Assembly: GCA_007674295.1 (NCBI GenBank)
Contig: CM017447.1
Coordinates: 248,001 to 312,000 of the forward strand
DNA: 64,000 nucleotides
Reading direction: 5' to 3'
Source: Antonospora locustae
Taxonomy: Eukaryota; Microsporidia
A program made the translations under genes and the position numbers. Each line of letters starts with the position of its first letter. Within the stretch, counting starts at the first letter, position 1. Positions 17,586 to 38,919 of the stretch are shown here, piece after piece. The notes beneath the pieces were generated by a model, which was given only the letters and a program-made list of their open reading frames with translations, did not search any database and was not told the origin of the DNA.

Positions 17586-20500
17586 ATGTGCAGGGGCATG
17601 AAACGGAACAAGAAGGCTAGCAGTCTCGACTTTGGCGAGATAATGGCTAGCAAAAAGACCGTGGAGGAGGTCTATCAGAAGAAGACACCAATCGAGCATA
17701 TTCTTCTGCGTCCAGACACATACATTGGGTCTGTTGAGAACGAGTCACAGCCAATGTATGTCTGGGACGACGAATCCGGGAAGATTTTGCAGAAGACAAT
17801 TAATTATGTTCCTGGCCTGTACAAGATATTTGATGAAATCATAGTCAACGCTGCAGATAACAAAATTCGCGATTCCAAAATGGACATGATAAAGATAACT
17901 ATAGACCGAGAGGAGAGCTCCATATCTGTGTACAACAACGGAAAAGGCGTTCCGATAAGAATGCACGCAAGAGAGAAGGTATATGTACCTGAGCTCATAT
18001 TTGGACAGCTTCTGACGTCTTCCAACTATGATGACAAAGAGGAAAAGGTGACTGGCGGAAGAAATGGGTATGGTGCTAAGCTGTGCAACATATTCAGTAG
18101 AGAGTTTATTGTTGAAACCAGCGACTCTGAGGTTGGATTGCGGTACTACCAAAGGTACTTTAACAACATGTCTGGAAGAGACGAACCAGTGATAACCAAG
18201 TGCAGTGGTAGCGACTTCACGCAAATCACGTTCAAGCCAGACCTTAAGCGCTTCAACATGGAGAGGCTTGACGATGACTTTGTGTCCTTGATAAAAAAGC
18301 GTGTGTATGACCTATCTGGAATAGTCAAAGACGTAAGAGTCTTTCTAAATGGCGAGCAAATTCACATTAGAAACTTCAAGGATTATGTAGGGTTATATCT
18401 GCAGAGCGATCAGAAGGTCGTGCATGAAAAGGTGAATGAAAGGTGGGAGGTTGTTGTGACGCTCTCAGAAGAACAGTTTCAGCAGGTAAGCTTCGTTAAT
18501 GGGATATGCACGTCAAAGGGTGGAACACACATAGTACATGTCTCGACCAGCTCATAGACCCGATAGCAGAGCAGGTGAAAAAGAAGGAGAAGGGCCTGGT
18601 TATTCGCCCCTTTCAGGTCAAGTCGTGCCTATTTCTCTTTGTCAACACGCTCATAGTGAACCCGGCGTTTGACTCACAGACAAAGGAAAACATGACACTG
18701 AGGGCATCGTCCTTTGGGTCAAGATGCACCATTAGTGACGAATTTGTAAAGAATGTCATGAAGACCGGCATAGTTGAAAGAATTACGGCCTTTGCTAAAA
18801 TAAAGCAGGCACAGCAACTGAGGAAGACAGACGGAACTAAGACGGGAAAACTAAGCGGAATACCAAAGCTAACAGATGCAAACATGGCTGGCACGCGGCA
18901 ATCACAGAAGTGCACGCTGATTTTGACTGAGGGAGACTCTGCAAAGACACTCGCAATAAGTGGGCTCAGCATTGTTGGCCGTGATCTCTACGGTGTGTTT
19001 CCTCTGAGAGGCAAGCTTCTGAACGTGAGAGAGGCATCGCACAAGCAAATTATGGAGAACCAAGAGATAAATGCTATAAAAAAGATACTAGGGCTTCAGC
19101 ACGGAAAGACATATGAGACAACAGAAAGCCTGAGATACGGGCATGTGATGATAATGACAGACCAGGACCATGATGGATCGCACATCAAGGGACTGATAAT
19201 CAACTTTTTTGACCACTTTTTTCCGTCTTTGCTGCTTATTCCTGAGTTTCTGCAAGAGTTTATCACGCCAATTGTCAGGGCAACGTGGAAGGGCGAGAGA
19301 ATCGACTTCTACACAATTCCAGAATACGAAAAGTGGAAGGAGGAGGACCCTGACTTCAAGCGGTACAGCATCAAGTACTACAAGGGTCTCGGAACATCAA
19401 CGGCGCAGGATGCAAGAGACTACTTTAGCAACATCTCAAAACATGTTAAAAGCTTCTGCCCTCTGTCTGCAGACGACAAAATGCTAGTCGACTTGGCATT
19501 CAACAAGAAAAAGGCAGATGCACGCAAGAACTGGCTGAAGAATTTCATTCAAGGAACGTTTTTGGACCATAGCAACTCAAAGATACTGATTTCGGACTTT
19601 GTCAACAAGGAGCTAATTCTGTTTTCCATGGCAGACAACGTGCGAAGTATTCCTTCGGTAGTAGACGGTCTTAAGCCTGGACAAAGAAAGGTCATATTTT
19701 GCTGCTTCAAGAGAAACCTGAAAGAAGAGATCAAGATCGCACAGCTTGTGGGGTATGTGTCCGAGAAGTCAGCATATCATCATGGAGAGGTATCCCTTGC
19801 ATCTACAATCATCAACTTGGCACAAGACTTCGTGGGGTCAAACAACATAAACCTACTCTTGCCCATTGGGCAGTTCGGAACACGACTCATGGGTGGAAAG
19901 GACTCGGCCTCTCCTAGATACATATTCACGTCGCTTTCTCCGCTAGCCCGGCTTATTTTTAAAGGATGCGACGACCCCATCCTGAATTTTTTAAATGAGG
20001 ACAACCAGAGCATAGAGCCTGACTTCTACGTGCCCATAATACCAATGGTCTTGGTAAACGGTGCGGAGGGAATAGGAACAGGGTGGTCTACATCAATTCC
20101 AACATTCTGTCCTCAAAAGATAGCACAGAACATAATAAACATGATAGATGAGAGAGATCCCGAGTCAATGATTCCTTTCTACAAAAACTTCAAGGGTACC
20201 ATAGAGGAGGTGGGAGAGGGAAAGTACAAGGTTAGCGGAGTGTTTAGCATAAGTGGAAACAGCATGGAGATAACAGAGCTTCCTGTTGGAGTATGGACAC
20301 AGACATATAAGGAGTTTTTGGACCAGCTTCTGGCTGATGGTGAAATAAGAGACTTCAAAGAGTACCATACAGAGAGAGATGTGAATTTTCTAATTAGGTT
20401 TTCGGGAGATTCAATGCTTTCAGGAAAGAAGTCTGATGTTGAGAAAAAAATGAAACTCTGCACAACGATAAGTCTAAGCAATATGGTGTGCTTTGACAGA

Positions 20501-21160
20501 AATGGATGCATAAAGAGATATGATACACCAATAGAGATTCTGCGCGAGTTCTACAATATAAGGCTGGAGTACTATGTCAAGCGCAAGGAGCAGCTTCTCA
20601 GGTCCTTGAGAGAAGAGGTAGACAGGCTTGAAAACAAGGTTTCCTTCATCAGTGAAGTTGTAAATGGCACACTTGCAATAAGTGGAAGAAAGAGGTCTGA
20701 GATTGTGAATGATCTTGTGCACAGAGACTACAAAAAAATAGATGATGACTATGAATATTTACTGTCTATGCCAATATTGAGCTTGACGCTTGAGAAGATA
20801 GATAAACTGAACCTGGAGAGAGATTCCAAGAAAAACGAGCTTGAGTGGCTTCTTAGCATGTCTCCTAAGATGCTGTGGAAGAGCGACCTTGAGATATTTG
20901 TTAAAGCTTATGAGCAGCACATAGCGTGTGAGCGCAGCAGCGACAGCGAGGCTCCAAAAAGAAAAAGGAAAAAGGCAAGTACAGAGAGCATTAGAAAAAG
21001 GAGTGCCAACAGAAAGCCAGATGCTGTGAAAAAGCATGAGTTTGAAGCACCTATATTTGAAAAGGGGAAGGCTACTGCTAGTAAGAATAAAACAAAGAAG
21101 ATAGATAATTCTGAAAAGCCGTGGGAAAAATACAACGTGATTCTCTCTGATTCCGAATAA
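17586..21160 (+). CDS. TOP2: DNA topoisomerase II, with a single frame break near 18542
   Basis: Type IIA topoisomerase of about 1190 residues that passes DNA duplexes through each other. All core parts are present: GHKL ATPase motifs (VYNNGKGVPI, GGRNGYGAKL), TOPRIM motifs LTEGDSAKT and MTDQDHDGSH, and catalytic Tyr (codon 19919-19921) in ASPRYIFT. The C-terminus is lysine-rich with nuclear-localisation-like PKRKRKK. The frame shifts by -1 in the ATPase-transducer region: KGGTHIVHV in one frame is followed after one missing base by DQLIDPIAEQ in another, with stop TAG in the first frame at 18555-18557. The ATG at 17586 is the first; 17598 and 17643 are alternatives. Confidence 0.93.
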
Positions 21161-28236: not shown

Positions 28237-31200
28237 ATGAACGATGTGAAACCCTGCAAAGACGATGTGCCTACTGACGTTGAATCGCTTTTTAAGATCA
28301 TGAACAACAAAAACAAGCTGATAACACGAATATTCATAGCAAACAATGGCCTGTCTGCAGTAAAGTTTATAAAGTCCATGGTAGATTTCTCCTACCAGGC
28401 ATGTGGAAAAAACGTGTTTGAGTTTTGCGGAATGGCAACATTGGAGGATCTCGAGAGTGGATACGAGTACTGCACAAGGCTTACAGATTTTGAGATAGTT
28501 GACTCTGGTCCTTCAAAAACAAACTTTGGAAACGTAGAGCTTGTTGTACGTATAGCCTCTAAATTGCAATGCAAGTGTCTGTGGGCTGGGTGGGGGCATG
28601 CTTCTGAGAATCCTGAGCTCCCTGCGGCGCTGGATAAATCAGGTATTACTTTTCTGGGCCCATCATACCAGTCCATGTGGCTTCTTGGCAACAAAATATC
28701 ATGTGTTATTATGGCAGAAAAACTCGGCATAAGCCTACTTCCATATTGTATCGATGATGGAGTCCGAAAAATGCATCTAGAAGTATGCAACAACATTTTT
28801 ATGCACAGGCTTGATTTTACTCCGATTGAGAAGCATGTTGCGCATTTGCTACAGCTCAACGTGCTGAAGAGTAGGTGCAGGACGTTGAAGTTTCCTGTCA
28901 TGCTAAAAATGAGCCATACTGGTGGAGGACAGGGCATTCGCAAGATAGAATCCGCGGAAGAACTTGATTATGTTATTGACGACTGCAACAACGGGCTATT
29001 TCTTGTTGTAGAGTGTATCGAGAATGTTAAACACGTAGAAGTGCAGGCTGTCTCGGACAACTGCAACAACGTGTTGATTTTGGGAGAACGAGACTGCACA
29101 ACACAACGTAGACACCAAAAAGTGATTGAAACGTCTGTTTCTGGAATTGAACGCGGCATTATACAAAGCATGGAAAAAGACGCAGAAAGGCTCTTGAAAG
29201 AGGCCAGATACACGGGCTTGGCAACTGTTGAATTTTTGTTTGATGCGAAAAGCCATAGATACTACCTACTGGAGGTCAACACAAGAATACAGGTAGAGCA
29301 CACTGTTACCGAGATGATTTTTGGTGTAAACATCCCAGCAATACAATATATGATAGGCATGGGCGCCTCCGTACCGGATATTCAAAGGGCGTTTGAAATT
29401 GGCACAGCAAAAAAGTACGTCATGGGTGTTCGCATTACAGCAGAAAACCCAACATCCGGTTTTGACCCTGTTACTGGAAGAGTTTCTGTTAGATATGAGC
29501 CTGCACCTGACGAAACAGGTTACTTTTCTATTTATGATGGAGTAATTCATGAATACGGCGAATCCCAATTTGGACATGTTTTTGTTTGTGCAGACACAAG
29601 ACAAATGTGTATTGCAAAGTGCCTACGCACACTTTCTTCCATACAGGTAGAGTATATCGAAACTCCCATTAAGCTGATATCCATGTTTATTCAGACGCCT
29701 GAATTTATGTGCAACGAAATATCAACAAGCTCTCTAGAGACATTTGCCAGAAACATAAGCCGGGCTTCTTGTAACTCTGGGAGCCTCGCAACCAGGAATT
29801 CCCATACCTGTCAAATGCACGATGTAAGCAGCATCAGAAAACATCAGGACAAGGGGGAAGAGCGTGGAAGTGTTGTAGATATGGCGTACATCAACTTTAT
29901 CAACACAGGTGTGGACACGCCAGATCTTAAGAAGGAAGAACCCCCTGTAAACGTACCATTTAGCATGCCTGCAAGCTTTTCGAGAGAAAACCTGTGTATG
30001 GCGCCATGCCTTGTTGCAGCAGCTATTATAGCTGTGGACACCATGACATGCATTCAGAAGAAAATGCAGACTAGAATAAGCTTCTTGCTTGAAAATGTGA
30101 TATACACATTTGAAGCACACATAGCATCACCGTCACACATTGTGTTAGAGACCAAAATTGGCATTTCATGCATATTTTTTAGACAAATATCATCATCAAA
30201 AGTTGTTCTCAAAGAAAGAATCACACACATAGTTAAGTTTTTGAGGTCGGATACGGCATACTCCATCGTGTACAACGGGCAGACATATTTTCCACGCACA
30301 AAATTCAGCAGTAACGGCATATTGTCACCGAAGTGCGGAAAGCTTGTATCTATATGCAAGAAAAATGGGGATTTTGTGTTGGCGAACGACGCTGTTTTTG
30401 AGATTGAATCCTTAAAGATTCGGTCTTTAGTTCTTGCGCCGTTTGACGGCATAATCTCGTTTGCAAAAAAGGCTGGAGACAGAGTAGCTTCTCAGGAGCT
30501 AGTGTGCACCATAGAAAATGCGTCCGATAGATTCAGGACATTTGATGGCGTACATGAGACGTACATCGATGACGGGACACTTACTCTGGGTTCACTAGAG
30601 GGCTTTTCGGTTCCTCCACGAATGTGGCATGTCCCAGAAAGACCTGAAGACATTGACGCATTCATCGTGGCCTTTTTGAGAGATGGTGTGTGCATAGGGC
30701 TCTGCCACAGAGTCCTTGAGACTTTGAAGAGTCTTATTGCGAAGAACACCATTGGGGCAGCTCTTGGAAATAGGCTAATCAGAAACCTGCGCCGGTTGGT
30801 ACTTAGGTGTGATGATGGCCTTCCCTCGTTGTACAGCTGCATTGAGTTTTGTGTCGACGCCTTGGAAAACAGTGTACACGACGAACTTCTGGGCCTTCGG
30901 CCGTATCTGGAAGGTACGCTTGCAGAAAGCCCAATACGTATCCATTACACGAAAAAAAGCGCGTTAAGGCAGTGCATGTATGCAGAAACATCACGATTTA
31001 TTCCAGAAAAATCGTTTTTCATGTGTTTTCTTGAGGACAGAATGAGTGTTGAGACACATGCAGCTGTTTATTTGTCTGAGGATTTTTGGCCCACGCTACT
31101 TTCAAATATAATACTGAAGGTCATGAATGGCAGGTTAGCGTCAGGTAAATGCAATACAAGCACGGAAAGAAAGTACACAAGACTAATAATTAATTTGTAT

Positions 31201-33273
31201 GGAGACAGCGGTACAATTGTAGATGAGCTGCCACCGTCTGTGTTCGGCTATCTCGACACGTGTAAAATCGAGAACATAGTGCTTTTATACCAGGACCATG
31301 GCATGCAATATGAGATGTGTACTACTCGGGGGTTTCTTGAGACAAAGCTTGTTAAGGATGATGTTCTCTTGTGGTACAGACTAAATCTAAGGCCCGTAAA
31401 TAACATTCGCATGCAGGATGTAATGTTTGACAAGTCGATGTTCGCTAGTGAAAGGATGCTTGCACGAAAGAACAACACAGTGTACTATATAGACTTTATG
31501 GAGATTGTGAAAATATATTTTTTAAGTCTAGGGGTTGACTGTAAGGTCAATGAGATATATATGTGTGACAATTGCAGCATCAACGAGGTCTTTGAAAAAG
31601 AAGAAATGCCCTCAATCAGAGGAATCAATGGGCACAGGAAGTCTGATTGCAACTCAGAAGATACAAGCGAATATCCCTGGTACGTCCATGAAGGAAGAAA
31701 ATACACGTTATCTCAAGATGTAGGCTCTTTTGCTGCGATAGGTGTTAAAGGCTTTGTACTTGAATACAATAAAAGGAAGGTGGTGATGATAATTAACGAT
31801 ATATCTCATAAGCACGGTTCCTTTTCCATTCTGGAAGATATATTCTTTTACTTACTTACAAAGTACTGCCGCGTCAATAAGTATCCAAGAATATTTGTAG
31901 CAAGCAACAGCGGTGCAAGAGTGGGTATATGCGACGAGCTTGTGAAGAATGTTGAAGCTGTTTTCAAAGACGGAAAGATTGAGTATCTAGTGATCAAGGA
32001 GGATGCCAGTTTTTATGAAGACATCGTGCACGCCCACCCAGAGAAGGTGCAGAACGTGCTTGACATCGCTGCAGAACACGAATTAGGCAAGATGTTAGTT
32101 AAGAGTGTAGACAGAAGAAAAAAGATTCTGTCAATCTTTGGAAACACAGACAGTGGCCCCGAGAACTTATCTTTTTCTGCACTAATAGCTGCTGAGACTG
32201 CAAGGGCATACAAAGAAACGCTTACCGTAAGCTATGTAACAGGAATGAGCGTTGGCATTGGAGCATACCTTGTCAGACTTGGCGAGAGAATCATACAGAA
32301 GCAAGGTGCACCCATACTATTAACTGGATACAAAGTTCTGAACAGGCTGTTGCAGCAGGATATATACAAGTCGAATGCACAGATTGGTAGTTTTGATGTT
32401 CTAGGACACAACGGCGTGAGCCATTTGGAGGCATACGATGATCTACATGGTGTTGAGGAGATCTTTTGGTGGGTTGACTTCTACTTCTCAAGTAGAATTA
32501 TGCAAAGTAAAAATGTCCAACCTATTTCAGCTACAGATGCAGAGGAGGTGTACAGAGAGCAGATGCCTTACACTTTCAATGATAGCTTCAACGAAAGAGA
32601 AGTGCTCGAGAAAGTGCTTGACAGTGGATCATTCAAAGAGTACCAGAGACATTGGGCTCCGAACGTCATTGTTGGAAGAGGATATATCCACAGCACTGCA
32701 GTAGGCATAATCTGTCCCGAAATAGAGTCGAGGGTCACCAGTGTTCCTTGTGAGCCCTATGAAACGAGCACAAATGTAACATGGACAAAAAATGTGATGT
32801 TTTGTGAAACTGCAGCAAAGATAGCAAGCGCTATAGAAAACTTCAACAACGAGAGAGTCGACCTGCTTATAATAGCAAACTGGAAAGGCTTTAGTGGGTC
32901 AACCACCAGCATGTTCAAAGGTATAATGAAGACAGGTGCTGATATTATCAAGAACCTTACAGACTTTAGACAAAAGATTATAGTCTACATACCGCCACAT
33001 GGAGAGCTGCGAGGGGGAACCTACGTTGTGTTTGACAAAAAAATAAACCAAAAAATACACATCATTGCGCATCCCACTGCGGGTGTAGGCATAATACAGC
33101 CAGATGGGTTGAGAGAGATTAAGATGAGAAACGTAGAGGACAGGGCATTTGCTGAGGCATTCTGCACACTACATGACAATGTATACAGAATGGTACGACA
33201 CGGCATTATAGACGGCCTTGTGAAAACGCATGATCTGAAAAAGTACATCGCATCCTACTTAGGACTGAGATAG
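28237..33273 (+). CDS. ACC1: Acetyl-CoA carboxylase, eukaryotic multidomain, contracted
   Basis: This single chain of 1678 residues converts acetyl-CoA to malonyl-CoA, the two-carbon donor for fatty-acid building or elongation. Biotin carboxylase occupies about residues 28-500: RIFIANNGLSAVKF, WAGWGHASENPELP, GGGQGIRKIES, RDCTTQRRHQKVIE and LLEVNTRIQVEHTVTEM. A biotinyl-domain-like segment lies at about 690-760 with Lys727 in ESLKI, where the family has (V/A)MKM. The carboxyltransferase fills about 1150-1640 (ASNSGARVGI, TGMSVGIGAYLVRLGERIIQ, NWKGFSGSTTSMF, PPHGELRGGTYVV). Yeast Acc1 has 2233 residues; the missing length is mainly in the central region. It is the longest gene in the window and reads through with no frame break. 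Confidence 0.95.
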   Translation: MNDVKPCKDDVPTDVESLFKIMNNKNKLITRIFIANNGLSAVKFIKSMVDFSYQACGKNVFEFCGMATLEDLESGYEYCTRLTDFEIVDSGPSKTNFGNVELVVRIASKLQCKCLWAGWGHASENPELPAALDKSGITFLGPSYQSMWLLGNKISCVIMAEKLGISLLPYCIDDGVRKMHLEVCNNIFMHRLDFTPIEKHVAHLLQLNVLKSRCRTLKFPVMLKMSHTGGGQGIRKIESAEELDYVIDDCNNGLFLVVECIENVKHVEVQAVSDNCNNVLILGERDCTTQRRHQKVIETSVSGIERGIIQSMEKDAERLLKEARYTGLATVEFLFDAKSHRYYLLEVNTRIQVEHTVTEMIFGVNIPAIQYMIGMGASVPDIQRAFEIGTAKKYVMGVRITAENPTSGFDPVTGRVSVRYEPAPDETGYFSIYDGVIHEYGESQFGHVFVCADTRQMCIAKCLRTLSSIQVEYIETPIKLISMFIQTPEFMCNEISTSSLETFARNISRASCNSGSLATRNSHTCQMHDVSSIRKHQDKGEERGSVVDMAYINFINTGVDTPDLKKEEPPVNVPFSMPASFSRENLCMAPCLVAAAIIAVDTMTCIQKKMQTRISFLLENVIYTFEAHIASPSHIVLETKIGISCIFFRQISSSKVVLKERITHIVKFLRSDTAYSIVYNGQTYFPRTKFSSNGILSPKCGKLVSICKKNGDFVLANDAVFEIESLKIRSLVLAPFDGIISFAKKAGDRVASQELVCTIENASDRFRTFDGVHETYIDDGTLTLGSLEGFSVPPRMWHVPERPEDIDAFIVAFLRDGVCIGLCHRVLETLKSLIAKNTIGAALGNRLIRNLRRLVLRCDDGLPSLYSCIEFCVDALENSVHDELLGLRPYLEGTLAESPIRIHYTKKSALRQCMYAETSRFIPEKSFFMCFLEDRMSVETHAAVYLSEDFWPTLLSNIILKVMNGRLASGKCNTSTERKYTRLIINLYGDSGTIVDELPPSVFGYLDTCKIENIVLLYQDHGMQYEMCTTRGFLETKLVKDDVLLWYRLNLRPVNNIRMQDVMFDKSMFASERMLARKNNTVYYIDFMEIVKIYFLSLGVDCKVNEIYMCDNCSINEVFEKEEMPSIRGINGHRKSDCNSEDTSEYPWYVHEGRKYTLSQDVGSFAAIGVKGFVLEYNKRKVVMIINDISHKHGSFSILEDIFFYLLTKYCRVNKYPRIFVASNSGARVGICDELVKNVEAVFKDGKIEYLVIKEDASFYEDIVHAHPEKVQNVLDIAAEHELGKMLVKSVDRRKKILSIFGNTDSGPENLSFSALIAAETARAYKETLTVSYVTGMSVGIGAYLVRLGERIIQKQGAPILLTGYKVLNRLLQQDIYKSNAQIGSFDVLGHNGVSHLEAYDDLHGVEEIFWWVDFYFSSRIMQSKNVQPISATDAEEVYREQMPYTFNDSFNEREVLEKVLDSGSFKEYQRHWAPNVIVGRGYIHSTAVGIICPEIESRVTSVPCEPYETSTNVTWTKNVMFCETAAKIASAIENFNNERVDLLIIANWKGFSGSTTSMFKGIMKTGADIIKNLTDFRQKIIVYIPPHGELRGGTYVVFDKKINQKIHIIAHPTAGVGIIQPDGLREIKMRNVEDRAFAEAFCTLHDNVYRMVRHGIIDGLVKTHDLKKYIASYLGLR

Positions 33274-35560: not shown

Positions 35561-37705
35561 TCATACAAGGTAGAACCCTTTTGTGTAGCTTATTGCAACG
35601 TCAAGTTTCTGCGCAAGTTTTTCTTTTGAGTTGTATTTTGGTATCATGAGTATGTTAAAGCATGTTTGTGCACTTGGAAGGTTGTCTGTGTTGCATCCAT
35701 TTCTCATAATTGCAAACCTGATGGACTTAGCCGTCACAGGTATTCTGTCATTTCCAGTGCAGAACTGCAAAAGCTTCTCGCGCATCTCTGCATCGTATTC
35801 TTCAACTATTTCCCAGAACCACGTTACAATGTCAGAGTTTGAGCTATATCCACGGTAAATACAGACCTCCTTGAGCTTTTGTATGTCTATGTACTTGCTT
35901 CCAACAATGATCTTTTCCAGTTCCTTTGCATGGAGAAACTCAAAAGATGTTGGCTGGATCACAGCAAGAAATCCTTTTCTAATGGATCTCATGTACGGTT
36001 CCACAGAATCAGACGTCAGAAACCTTGAGTACCGCTCCACAAAGAGCTCTACATTTTCCTTGGTCACTCTGATGGCTTGTCCGTTTTTTATCAGCGAGCG
36101 ACGCTGTATTCTTCCATTGGACTCGTATGTTATCTCAAAAGTCTGGTCGCAGAGCTCAAGTTCGTGTGCATTCAGTCTCCGCATGTTGCATAGAGAATTG
36201 AAGATGGCGGGCTCTATCTCTCTAAGGTCATTCAGCTCGGTGTCCTTGTTCAGAAGCCTCTTAAAAAACAACGTAGGAAAAGGTAGGTTCAGGACAACAT
36301 TGTTGTACAGCGCAATGCCTATAATCTTTCCAATTGACTCAAACTCAGACTTGACTCCGGAGTTGCCTAGTATAAACCACAAAGCCCTGTTTTTATGCTC
36401 AAAAAGACGTCTTTCCTCTCTTATTTCTTCACTTAAAAGCTGAAAGTACTCTTTCTTGATACCGCCTTGATCTTGGCCCTCTTCGTTATTGAAAGTCACC
36501 TTAACTTGTTTTCTCAAGTCGAAGTTTGGTGTTCTTTTCAACAGATTTAGTGTCTCGCCATATATAGTCTTTCTGTTGATCCGTATGAAAAGATACGGGA
36601 CCTTTTCACCTTCAAAAAGTGCTCGAAAAAACGTTTCCTGGAGCGATTCCTTTACCAGATCGTTGTTTTCGTATTTGATGAAGTCAGACTTCTTAGATAG
36701 AGGAAGTATGAACGTGTATTCAAATATGGATTTCTCACCTCTCTTGTGACACTTAAATTCTTCGTTGACGTCGATTCTCTTGCTAAAGCTGTGTAGATAA
36801 AAGTGCTCGTAACTGTACACTCGTATCTTTTCATTGACAATGTACAGAGCCTTTAGAATCTTCAAAAAGGACTCAACAAAAGAGCATTCGCGTATATTAG
36901 GCTTATTCGTGTTTTCAAGTGCATTCAGCACAATGCTGACTGACTTGATGTAGTCGTCAAGAGCCAGATGGGGATGGACAACGCAGATACATTCAGGACT
37001 AGAAGAAGAATTTCTCTGTGGCACCATTGCAAAGTAAAGCTCATCTATAACCCCTTTGCACATGCTTCTTGTGGAAAGGTATATGTCTAGAAGCGTATGC
37101 TGATAGCATGTTTTAACTCTTTTGTACCTGGACACAATATTGAAAATTCTTATTGAAAACGGCTTAAGTATGGCGCTGCTTGTCGCACGAAATCTCTCTA
37201 GAATGAGATACAAGAGACCTTCCATGAGGTGAACATCCTCTTCCACCAAGTTGCTCTGGGCAAAAAATTTACAGTAGATGTGACATTCGCTATCTTCGCT
37301 CTGTGCAGATACTGTATCCTTGTATAGAAAACGAGCCTCTATGCAGGATTCTTTGCAGCATGTTGTAGTCCCTTCTTCACAGGCAGCAAAGAACGGCGCA
37401 GTCTTGTTTTGACTGCCAATCTCACCAATATCGATTTGCATGGAATGGTTTGCATGCTCCTCAGAAAGGCTGACAATGTAGAAGTAGAGGCCGAGTATAA
37501 TGCAGCCTCTTTCCATATGTTTTGCAGACAGAGAGCTGTTTAAGACGGTCTTTGTGATGTTCTCACAGAGAAACGCATCTCCGTATTCTGCAAGCACGTG
37601 GGAAAGACTTCTGACGCATTTCTCATTGCAGCAGAGGTTGCAGAACACTCTCATGCACTTTTTATCACATCCTTGCCTGATCTGTGTAGCATACACTTGC
37701 TCCAT
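35561..37705 (-). CDS. HECT-type ubiquitin ligase with N-terminal AZUL-like zinc finger (E6AP/Hul4-like)
   Basis: 714 residues. A C-terminal HECT domain (about 365-714) carries FNNEEGQDQGGIKKEYFQLLSEEI, ALWFILGNSG, GKIIGIALYNNVVLNLPFPTLFF and the catalytic region LPSAQTCFNILMIPKYNSKEKL, with active cysteine at about residue 682. The first 35 residues, QVYATQIRQGCDKKCMRVFCNLCC, match the AZUL zinc finger otherwise known from UBE3A/E6AP. The middle is helical and unassigned. The frame starts at ATG 37705 and ends at TAG 35561-35563. It probably attaches ubiquitin through a thioester on that cysteine; substrates are unknown. Confidence 0.93.
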   Translation of the reverse strand: MEQVYATQIRQGCDKKCMRVFCNLCCNEKCVRSLSHVLAEYGDAFLCENITKTVLNSSLSAKHMERGCIILGLYFYIVSLSEEHANHSMQIDIGEIGSQNKTAPFFAACEEGTTTCCKESCIEARFLYKDTVSAQSEDSECHIYCKFFAQSNLVEEDVHLMEGLLYLILERFRATSSAILKPFSIRIFNIVSRYKRVKTCYQHTLLDIYLSTRSMCKGVIDELYFAMVPQRNSSSSPECICVVHPHLALDDYIKSVSIVLNALENTNKPNIRECSFVESFLKILKALYIVNEKIRVYSYEHFYLHSFSKRIDVNEEFKCHKRGEKSIFEYTFILPLSKKSDFIKYENNDLVKESLQETFFRALFEGEKVPYLFIRINRKTIYGETLNLLKRTPNFDLRKQVKVTFNNEEGQDQGGIKKEYFQLLSEEIREERRLFEHKNRALWFILGNSGVKSEFESIGKIIGIALYNNVVLNLPFPTLFFKRLLNKDTELNDLREIEPAIFNSLCNMRRLNAHELELCDQTFEITYESNGRIQRRSLIKNGQAIRVTKENVELFVERYSRFLTSDSVEPYMRSIRKGFLAVIQPTSFEFLHAKELEKIIVGSKYIDIQKLKEVCIYRGYSSNSDIVTWFWEIVEEYDAEMREKLLQFCTGNDRIPVTAKSIRFAIMRNGCNTDNLPSAQTCFNILMIPKYNSKEKLAQKLDVAISYTKGFYLV

Positions 37706-37800: not shown

Positions 37801-38919
37801 ATGAGACTGCCACACAACATAAAGACAATAACAACACCTACTTTGAACCAAGTGACGATACCAAACAAGTACGTACAGAGCTACTTCTTGAAGACAGATG
37901 TCTCTTACTACACAAGAGACAGATACAAGTTCAAGAACTACTGCTATACAACAGACAAGATTGTGTTTTGCTGCATATCGCATGATAGAGCGCTCTTTGA
38001 CGACGGCAGAACGGCTCATCTAGACAGACTCTTTGAGAACATGTTTATTAACAAAGATAAGTTCGAAAATGCAGCAGCCGCAATGGACGTGTTGGGAGAT
38101 GTTCTTTCACCCATGCTCAACGCAAAAAAAGAGACATTCCTTGGCCTATCCTTTGTTGATTGGTTGAGCAGAACGGAGCTGATGAGTCTAATTCGTGTCT
38201 GTCTTGGCAGTTTGCAAATAAAAGGCCTTTTTCTCGTGCCCTACAGCCTGAGCATCGCTGCATCGAAAGGATGCAGCTCCGCAATCGTGGTGCATGTATA
38301 CGACATGTTTCAGTCTGCTGCCGTTATTGACGACGGCTGTTTAATAGAAAAACAACGGTTCTGTGTAGAGGGCTTTGACTTCAGAACAAATGACGAGGAA
38401 GATTTTGTTGAGGATCTCTCGAAGAAGCCGGGCGAACAGGACATGTTCTTTACGTGCAAAGTATGCAAGCTTGAAAACACTCGCGAGAACATACTTGCCC
38501 ACCTTAAAAACAATCACTTGTGCGAAAGCGAAGACCTGTTGGGCTCTGCAGAGATAAACGAGAACTTATGCGTGGCAAACAGTGCAAAAAGATGTCGGGA
38601 CAGTGTCTCTTCATATGTAAAGAGTCATGTCTGTGGTTTTAAATCCGATAAAAACAAAAAAAACTTTTCCATCATTCTGTGCAATCAAACAAAAAAGAAC
38701 ACTGATGCTTTTGAGTGCATAAGAAAAACAATAACAGACGGAGAAGCACTGGACGAGACATGTTGCATCCTGGAACTTGAGGATTGTGACAAAAAGGCGT
38801 TGGACGGAACTGCACTGTTGGGCACACTAGACATGTGCAAGGACCTATGGTTGTCTGATTGTGAATGGCAGGATTTTGGGCTTAGAATTTTGAAGGAGAA
38901 GGTACTATTTCACGTGTAA
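37801..38919 (+). CDS. ARP8: Actin-related protein, Arp8-like, with zinc-finger insertion
   Basis: 372 residues with an actin-fold skeleton. LRSPFT-type motifs are weak, but LIRVCLGSLQIKGLFLVPYSLSIAASKGCSSAIVVHV fits the hinge strand block of divergent Arps. The C-terminus DLWLSDCEWQDFGLRILKEKVLF resembles the ...W....EW..FGVRMLRER..F ending of Arp8, a subunit of the INO80 remodeller. Between lies FTCKVCKLENTRENILAHLKNNH (38449-38517), a C2H2-like finger not usual in Arps. Nucleotide-binding residues are poorly kept, as in Arp8. Divergent from the HECT gene with 95 nt between starts. Confidence 0.7.
   Translation: MRLPHNIKTITTPTLNQVTIPNKYVQSYFLKTDVSYYTRDRYKFKNYCYTTDKIVFCCISHDRALFDDGRTAHLDRLFENMFINKDKFENAAAAMDVLGDVLSPMLNAKKETFLGLSFVDWLSRTELMSLIRVCLGSLQIKGLFLVPYSLSIAASKGCSSAIVVHVYDMFQSAAVIDDGCLIEKQRFCVEGFDFRTNDEEDFVEDLSKKPGEQDMFFTCKVCKLENTRENILAHLKNNHLCESEDLLGSAEINENLCVANSAKRCRDSVSSYVKSHVCGFKSDKNKKNFSIILCNQTKKNTDAFECIRKTITDGEALDETCCILELEDCDKKALDGTALLGTLDMCKDLWLSDCEWQDFGLRILKEKVLFHV

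Follow-up and report, generated by a model that had tools for sequence, protein, structure and literature searches.

A shortened acetyl-CoA carboxylase with an altered biotin motif in the microsporidian Antonospora locustae

The locus described here raises the question of whether an acetyl-CoA carboxylase (ACC) whose biotin lysine has lost both of its flanking methionines is still a working enzyme, and what it would be used for in a reduced genome. The gene lies in a stretch of 64,000 nucleotides from contig CM017447.1 of Antonospora locustae, which is called the window below. On the sequence evidence, it is very probable that the window protein is a working, biotinylated, streamlined single-chain ACC of the eukaryotic type that makes malonyl-CoA for elongation. 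We infer the biotinylation of Lys727, the synthesis of malonyl-CoA by a carboxyltransferase (CT) that carries Met1337 and Lys1550, and the use of this product in elongation. The one biotin-protein ligase detected in the genome would put biotin on Lys727 despite the motif ESLKI, the biotin carboxylase (BC) would carboxylate that biotin, and the carrier would then swing to CT, where malonyl-CoA would be made for an ELO-type elongase rather than for a fatty-acid synthase.

Domain order, relatives and shortened centre

An earlier note on this DNA had claimed a full-length multidomain ACC, and this was borne out by a single open frame running from ATG to stop (Table 1) with five Pfam domains: Biotin_carb_N, CPSase_L_D2, Biotin_carb_C, Biotin_lipoyl (residues 695-759, 24.6 bits against a cut-off of 22.1) and Carboxyl_trans (residues 1180-1637, 261.7 bits). 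According to Pfam and to phmmer alignments with yeast and human ACC, the BC, biotin carrier (BCCP) and CT regions follow one another on one chain in the order of eukaryotic single-chain ACCs. The yeast and human enzymes are also the best solved relatives of the protein, and the phmmer E-values, down to 2e-163, place the match beyond chance. Yeast Acc1 (PDB 5csl/5csk) has the same order of BC, BT, BCCP, central region and CT, and it has the BC catalytic positions and the biotin lysine in common with the window ACC; the predicted BT/BCCP fold and the folds of the CT halves are also alike. The window protein differs from yeast Acc1 in the motif ESLKI, in Met1337 and Lys1550, which replace two arginines, and in having no match to PF08326.

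Table 1. Location of the ACC gene and its features (window positions, with residue numbers of the protein where given)
Feature	Position	Strand	Remark
Acetyl-CoA carboxylase gene	28237..33273	+	1678 aa, one frame, stop included
Biotin carboxylase (BC) region, residues 24-503	28306..29745	+	Pfam, phmmer, catalytic positions
BT-like barrel, residues ~590-690, approximate limits	30004..30306	+	
Biotin carrier (BCCP) domain, residues ~691-762	30307..30522	+	
Biotin motif E724-S-L-K727-I728	30406..30420	+	DNA GAA TCC TTA AAG ATT
Shortened central region, residues 763-1172	30523..31752	+	Without Pfam match
Carboxyltransferase (CT) region, residues 1173-1678	31753..33270	+	Pfam, phmmer, model
Met1337	32245..32247	+	Arg in 199/199 listed non-microsporidian ACCs
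Lys1550	32884..32886	+	Arg in 199/199 listed non-microsporidian ACCs

For comparison, 211 distinct proteins were aligned. They comprise the best 120 of 6349 and the best 120 of 6231 matches of two main homologue searches, in which scores were given only to the 7993 candidates that shared the most words, together with all seven matches of a search with the central region. Twelve rows were assigned to microsporidia and the other 199 were not. The twelve consist of the window protein (P0001), eight proteins that were placed by the tree (P0002-P0008 and P0209), and three from named species that were matched by the central-region search. The latter are Conglomerata obtusa (P0208) and Binucleata daphniae (P0210), both Microsporidia in the NCBI taxonomy, and Gurleya vavrai (P0211), which we take to be a microsporidian. 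None of the 211 listed proteins was recognised as an ACC of T. hominis, S. lophii or N. parisii. A tree was made from 22 rows, namely the twelve microsporidian rows and ten of the 199 others. The twelve form one clade with a support of 100/100; for 19 of the 22 rows, the program warned of a letter composition unlike that of the alignment. The closest relatives cited below are P0002 and P0003, which are 80% and 78% identical to the window ACC, respectively.

The centre had been described as several hundred residues shorter than in yeast. Measured from BCCP to CT (744-1554 in the yeast chain, 757-1176 in the window ACC), the difference is indeed about 390 residues. From Lys727 to the Asn of the CT motif 'NDI', 460 residues were counted, whereas the 199 listed non-microsporidian ACCs have a median of 873 and no fewer than 712. 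A shortened centre was likewise found in the other microsporidian proteins (P0208, P0210, P0211, P0002-P0008 and P0209). The same spacing is 426-460 in P0001-P0005 and 582-591 in the six long proteins of the other subclade; the value of 461 for P0211 comes from a record of 1178 aa and is not comparable. The central domain PF08326, which is typical of ACCs and does not define them, gave no match in the window ACC at E-values up to 1, and the precomputed domains of the other eleven microsporidian rows lack it as well. The window ACC may hold a shortened remnant of this domain. The structure model of the fragment that covers the central region has a mean pLDDT of 50.1, with nearly all values below 50 at fragment residues 373-570, and the confidence there is too low for a fold assignment.

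Catalytic positions of BC and CT

Twelve BC positions were checked, which we take to be catalytic with residue roles after E. coli BC, and all twelve are kept: Lys153, Lys224, His266, Gln290, His293, Lys295, Glu332, Glu346, Asn348, Arg350, Glu354 and Arg399. Eleven of these are invariant across the twelve microsporidian rows, while His293 varies in four of them.

A separate observation concerns the glycine loop of BC (residues 228-232, 28918-28932 on the forward strand), which reads TGGGQ in the window ACC and TGGGR in P0002 and P0003. In at least 99% of the 199 listed non-microsporidian ACCs, residue 228 is Gly and residue 232 is Lys; among the twelve microsporidian rows, the window ACC alone has Gln at 232.

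With regard to CT, the earlier note had spoken of kept carboxyltransferase motifs. This holds for the domain as a whole, as the Carboxyl_trans match described above and a phmmer match of 290.4 bits to yeast CT indicate, but not for two arginines, which are replaced by Met1337 and Lys1550. An arginine at both sites is typical of the 199 listed non-microsporidian ACCs (199/199), not defining. We take the sites to be those of yeast Arg1731 and Arg1954. In yeast CT, these two arginines bind the carboxylate. The basis of the assignment is their distance of 223 residues in the yeast CT chain, counted by hand on the phmmer alignment. An arginine in the SGGQRD segment was considered as the second one and rejected, because the spacing in the yeast CT chain leads to the arginine of NWRGF. 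No published account of Arg1954 (R1954) was found in the papers searched.

The first of the two sites is Met in six microsporidian proteins (P0001-P0005 and P0208), Ile in P0210 and Arg in four (P0006-P0008 and P0209), and the first arginine was lost at least twice on the 22-row tree. The second is Lys in all eleven microsporidian rows that have the CT region. The beta subunit of a Streptomyces acyl-CoA carboxylase has Pro at both sites in a pairwise alignment of 24% identity, and therefore the two arginines are not found in every biotin-dependent CT.

The structure model of CT has a pLDDT of 79.2 and a pTM of 0.82, and its top PDB matches are the CT domains of ACCs. In Foldseek, the E-values were strong, whereas the TM-scores were low (~0.42) and the rmsd over the whole alignment was about 26. 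One CT half alone gave an rmsd of 1.6 over 229 residues. Since one half fits well and the whole alignment poorly, the folds of the halves are trusted and their relative placement is not.

The earlier note also argued that the protein is under selection, and signs of this were found in the identities to P0002 and P0003. These are 0.84 and 0.82 for BC, 0.81 and 0.89 for BCCP, and 0.85 and 0.86 for CT, which is above the values for the N-terminal tail (0.52 and 0.61) and the linker between BC and BT (0.62 and 0.48). Towards P0002, P0004, P0005 and P0006, no region is better conserved than CT; towards P0003, only BCCP is.

Met1337 lacks the charge of the Arg that all 199 listed others have there. 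This is a counterpoint to a working ACC, and two related explanations have to be weighed. It is improbable that the biotin motif of the carrier and the CT site changed in concert in this microsporidian lineage, in which case CT would read carboxybiotin or acyl-CoA differently and the protein would be a minimal ACC of changed specificity or regulation. On the tree, the loss of the methionine after the biotin lysine and the loss of the first CT arginine amount to three and two changes, with P0209 and P0210 going opposite ways, and no link between the two is claimed because the events are too few. It is improbable, too, that CT changed its substrate or its rate, so that a biotinylated protein with a working BC would use another acyl acceptor or act as a slow ACC. 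Such a change could result from the replacement of two arginines that would lie near the carboxylate (by Met in six microsporidian rows or Ile in one at 1337, and by Lys at 1550 in all eleven rows with this region). The repeated loss of the first of them speaks for it, and it finds a parallel in the Streptomyces CT, which has another specificity and lives without both arginines in the distant alignment described above. However, P0006-P0008 and P0209 retain the first arginine, Lys in place of Arg preserves the charge, CT ranks first or second among the regions in conservation towards the relatives named above, and the elongase of the genome fits ordinary malonyl-CoA. A CT that makes malonyl-CoA with Met1337 and Lys1550 in place is the preferred reading.

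Biotin motif, carrier domain and biotin ligase

The placing of Lys727 at 30415-30417 within E-S-L-K-I, and the loss of both flanking methionines, had been noted before; both agree with the DNA (Table 1), which codes for Leu726 before and Ile728 after the lysine. An alignment with ACC biotinyl domains, as the earlier note had proposed, confirmed that ESLKI is atypical among the 211 listed proteins. All 199 listed non-microsporidian ACCs and ten of the twelve microsporidian rows have Met before the lysine, a typical state from which Leu726 departs; Leu occurs only in P0001 and P0003 among the 211 listed homologues. After the lysine, the 199 others have Met (196), Leu (two) or Val (one). The microsporidian rows have Ile (P0001-P0004), Val (P0005 and P0208), Thr (P0209) or Met (P0006-P0008, P0210 and P0211) at this position. 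The full motif reads ESLKI in P0003, ESMKI in P0002 and P0004, and ESMKV in P0005, whereas EIMKM, EIMKV or EIMKT was found in the other microsporidian subclade. Lys727 and Glu724 are kept in all twelve rows.

On the 22-row tree, the methionine that follows the lysine underwent at least three losses and the one that precedes it a single loss, and by parsimony the change from Met to Ile after the lysine would predate that from Met to Leu before it. Because the flanking methionines were lost stepwise across the microsporidian rows and P0003 also has ESLKI, the motif appears to be the last stage of a gradual erosion that is common to the window ACC and a separate, 78%-identical relative. Among 217 positions that are near-invariant (at least 99%) in the 199 listed others, 46 are changed in the window ACC, including one of the six in the carrier domain, and the altered motif is in line with a general erosion of the ACC protein. 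The window protein keeps 171 of the 217 (0.788), which falls within the range of 0.726-0.806 of the other eleven microsporidian rows; its pattern consequently reads as fast evolution and not as a dead copy.

The structure model of this fragment (residues 500-1178), which includes the carrier and the central region, was confident only at about residues 590-759, with block means of 65-89. The BT/BCCP part (VIA-align list: residues 88-275) matches yeast ACC in a structure comparison, and the carrier matches the BCCP of P. horikoshii with an rmsd of 1.1 over 70 residues. The biotin lysine, residue 228 of the model, lies in a turn (227-228) between strands 220-226 and 229-234. The window carrier is thus predicted to fold like known BCCPs.

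The genome search for a biotin-protein ligase that the earlier note had suggested was run on the window's assembly (3,170,203 bases, 17 contigs). One match was found in the 3.17 Mb (PF03099, 44.2 bits, G000:C2:209240-209500). It lies in a frame of 224 aa (L002:1378-2052) of the BirA type, with a BPL_LplA_LipB domain of 45.3 bits against a cut-off of 21. GRGR and KWPND, which we take to be biotin-protein ligase motifs, are present, and the best PDB match is the biotin ligase of P. horikoshii (55.8 bits). The frame misses the cut-offs of two NCBIfam models that were built for bacteria and archaea, TIGR00121 (birA_ligase; 80.8 vs 83.1 bits) and PRK08330 (85.2 vs 311 bits).

A second biotin carrier, which the earlier note had considered as evidence against its reading, was not detected by PF00364 (Biotin_lipoyl) in a six-frame search of the same 3.17 Mb, where the ACC gene was the sole place matched (29 bits). 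A carrier elsewhere was rejected on this ground, with a profile that scores diverged carriers poorly: the match to the ACC gene itself is weak, and PF00364 is absent from the precomputed domains of P0003, so that a more diverged second carrier may be overlooked. The retention of a ligase for which the ACC carrier is the only visible substrate is the strongest argument that Lys727 is probably modified.

The synthetic acceptor peptide of BirA has Lys-Ile, and Ile after Lys727 should therefore be tolerated. Against biotinylation of Lys727 stands work cited in PMC2753649, in which mutation of the residue before the biotin lysine in yeast pyruvate carboxylase compromised biotinylation. According to the same paper, changing MKM of E. 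coli BCCP to DKA gave partial lipoylation.

The earlier note had left two options, either that biotinylation tolerates the change or that the protein works without biotin. The first is favoured, as a BirA-type ligase is kept and the ACC is the only Biotin_lipoyl match, and the second is unlikely. Indeed, it is very improbable that biotinylation has been lost and that the protein either acts without biotin or persists as a pseudoenzyme for structure or regulation. The absence of both methionines and the 46 changed near-invariant positions would fit such a protein, but the ligase would then be retained without its only Biotin_lipoyl match as a substrate, all twelve BC catalytic positions are kept, and the other eleven microsporidian rows retain near-invariant positions to a similar extent. 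The chance that a sequencing or strain error lies behind ESLKI, which relatives with a normal motif would have suggested and for which the Met before the lysine in the 80%-identical P0002 (ESMKI) might speak, is negligible, since the separate P0003, which is sister to P0001 on the tree (support 86/81, under the starred threshold) and comes from other contigs (5 member sequences, 6 contigs), has ESLKI as well.

Use of malonyl-CoA and neighbouring genes

If Lys727 is biotinylated and CT makes malonyl-CoA, the product needs a use. The earlier note had called for a search for fatty-acid synthase and elongases, and the profile search of the genome found an ELO elongase (151.7 bits) and no ketoacyl synthase over the cut-off. 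A PTPLA-type dehydratase (108.7 bits), three AMP-binding enzymes and three short-chain dehydrogenases were also found. The dehydrogenases are ketoreductase candidates, one of which (L009) matched many short-chain dehydrogenases and no clear one. The best ketoacyl synthase match, with 17.5 bits, lies inside a thiolase frame, and a fatty-acid synthase elsewhere in the genome was rejected on this basis. The genome gave no match to the TSC13 type of enoyl-CoA reductase (PF02544) and none to a desaturase (PF00487), so the elongation cycle is incomplete by these profiles. The missing PF02544 match could mean that the reductase gene has diverged or that elongation ends in an unusual step. Elongation of host-derived fatty acids would be the simplest use of malonyl-CoA.

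The thiolase frame itself (G000:C16, L005:1252-2400) codes for an acetyl-CoA C-acyltransferase of 382 aa (TIGR01930, 402.1 bits), which may act in isoprenoid synthesis or in the breakdown of fatty acids.

A comparable set of genes has been described in other microsporidia. According to the Spraguea lophii genome paper of 2013 (PMC3749934), ACC and its biotin ligase are present in S. lophii, T. hominis and N. parisii, as they are in the window genome. S. lophii is described there as having an elongase and a desaturase and no fatty-acid synthase; the window genome agrees in the elongase and the lack of a detected fatty-acid synthase and differs in that no desaturase was found in it. A 2024 review (PMC11426481) states that Microsporidia lost fatty-acid synthase and must scavenge lipids. 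The finding fits this picture, in which microsporidia without fatty-acid synthase retain a supply of malonyl-CoA for elongation. The earlier note had called an ACC in such a genome surprising. An ACC is indeed present without a detected fatty-acid synthase, but this kind of enzyme is not new, and the surprise is smaller with the enzyme of relatives already in print (PMC3749934).

The kind of ACC and its presence in microsporidia are thus known, and the variant features are counted as new: in the papers searched, neither the altered biotin motif nor the changes of the CT arginines nor the shortened centre of microsporidian ACC was seen described. None of the 199 listed non-microsporidian ACCs is as short from carrier to CT, and none is without Met before the lysine. 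The window ACC offers a natural experiment on how far an ACC can do without parts of its biotin motif, its central region and its CT arginines.

Two observations were made on neighbouring genes of the window. A frame with type II topoisomerase domains (18506-21160, forward strand) has a DNA_gyraseB match that begins at profile position 75, and the start of this topoisomerase frame is overlapped by an ATG frame in a different register (17586-18557); the N-terminus of the topoisomerase may thus lie upstream or be split. Near the ACC gene, a HECT ubiquitin ligase (35561-37705, reverse strand) and a gene of the Actin_micro family (37801-38919, forward strand) stand head to head.
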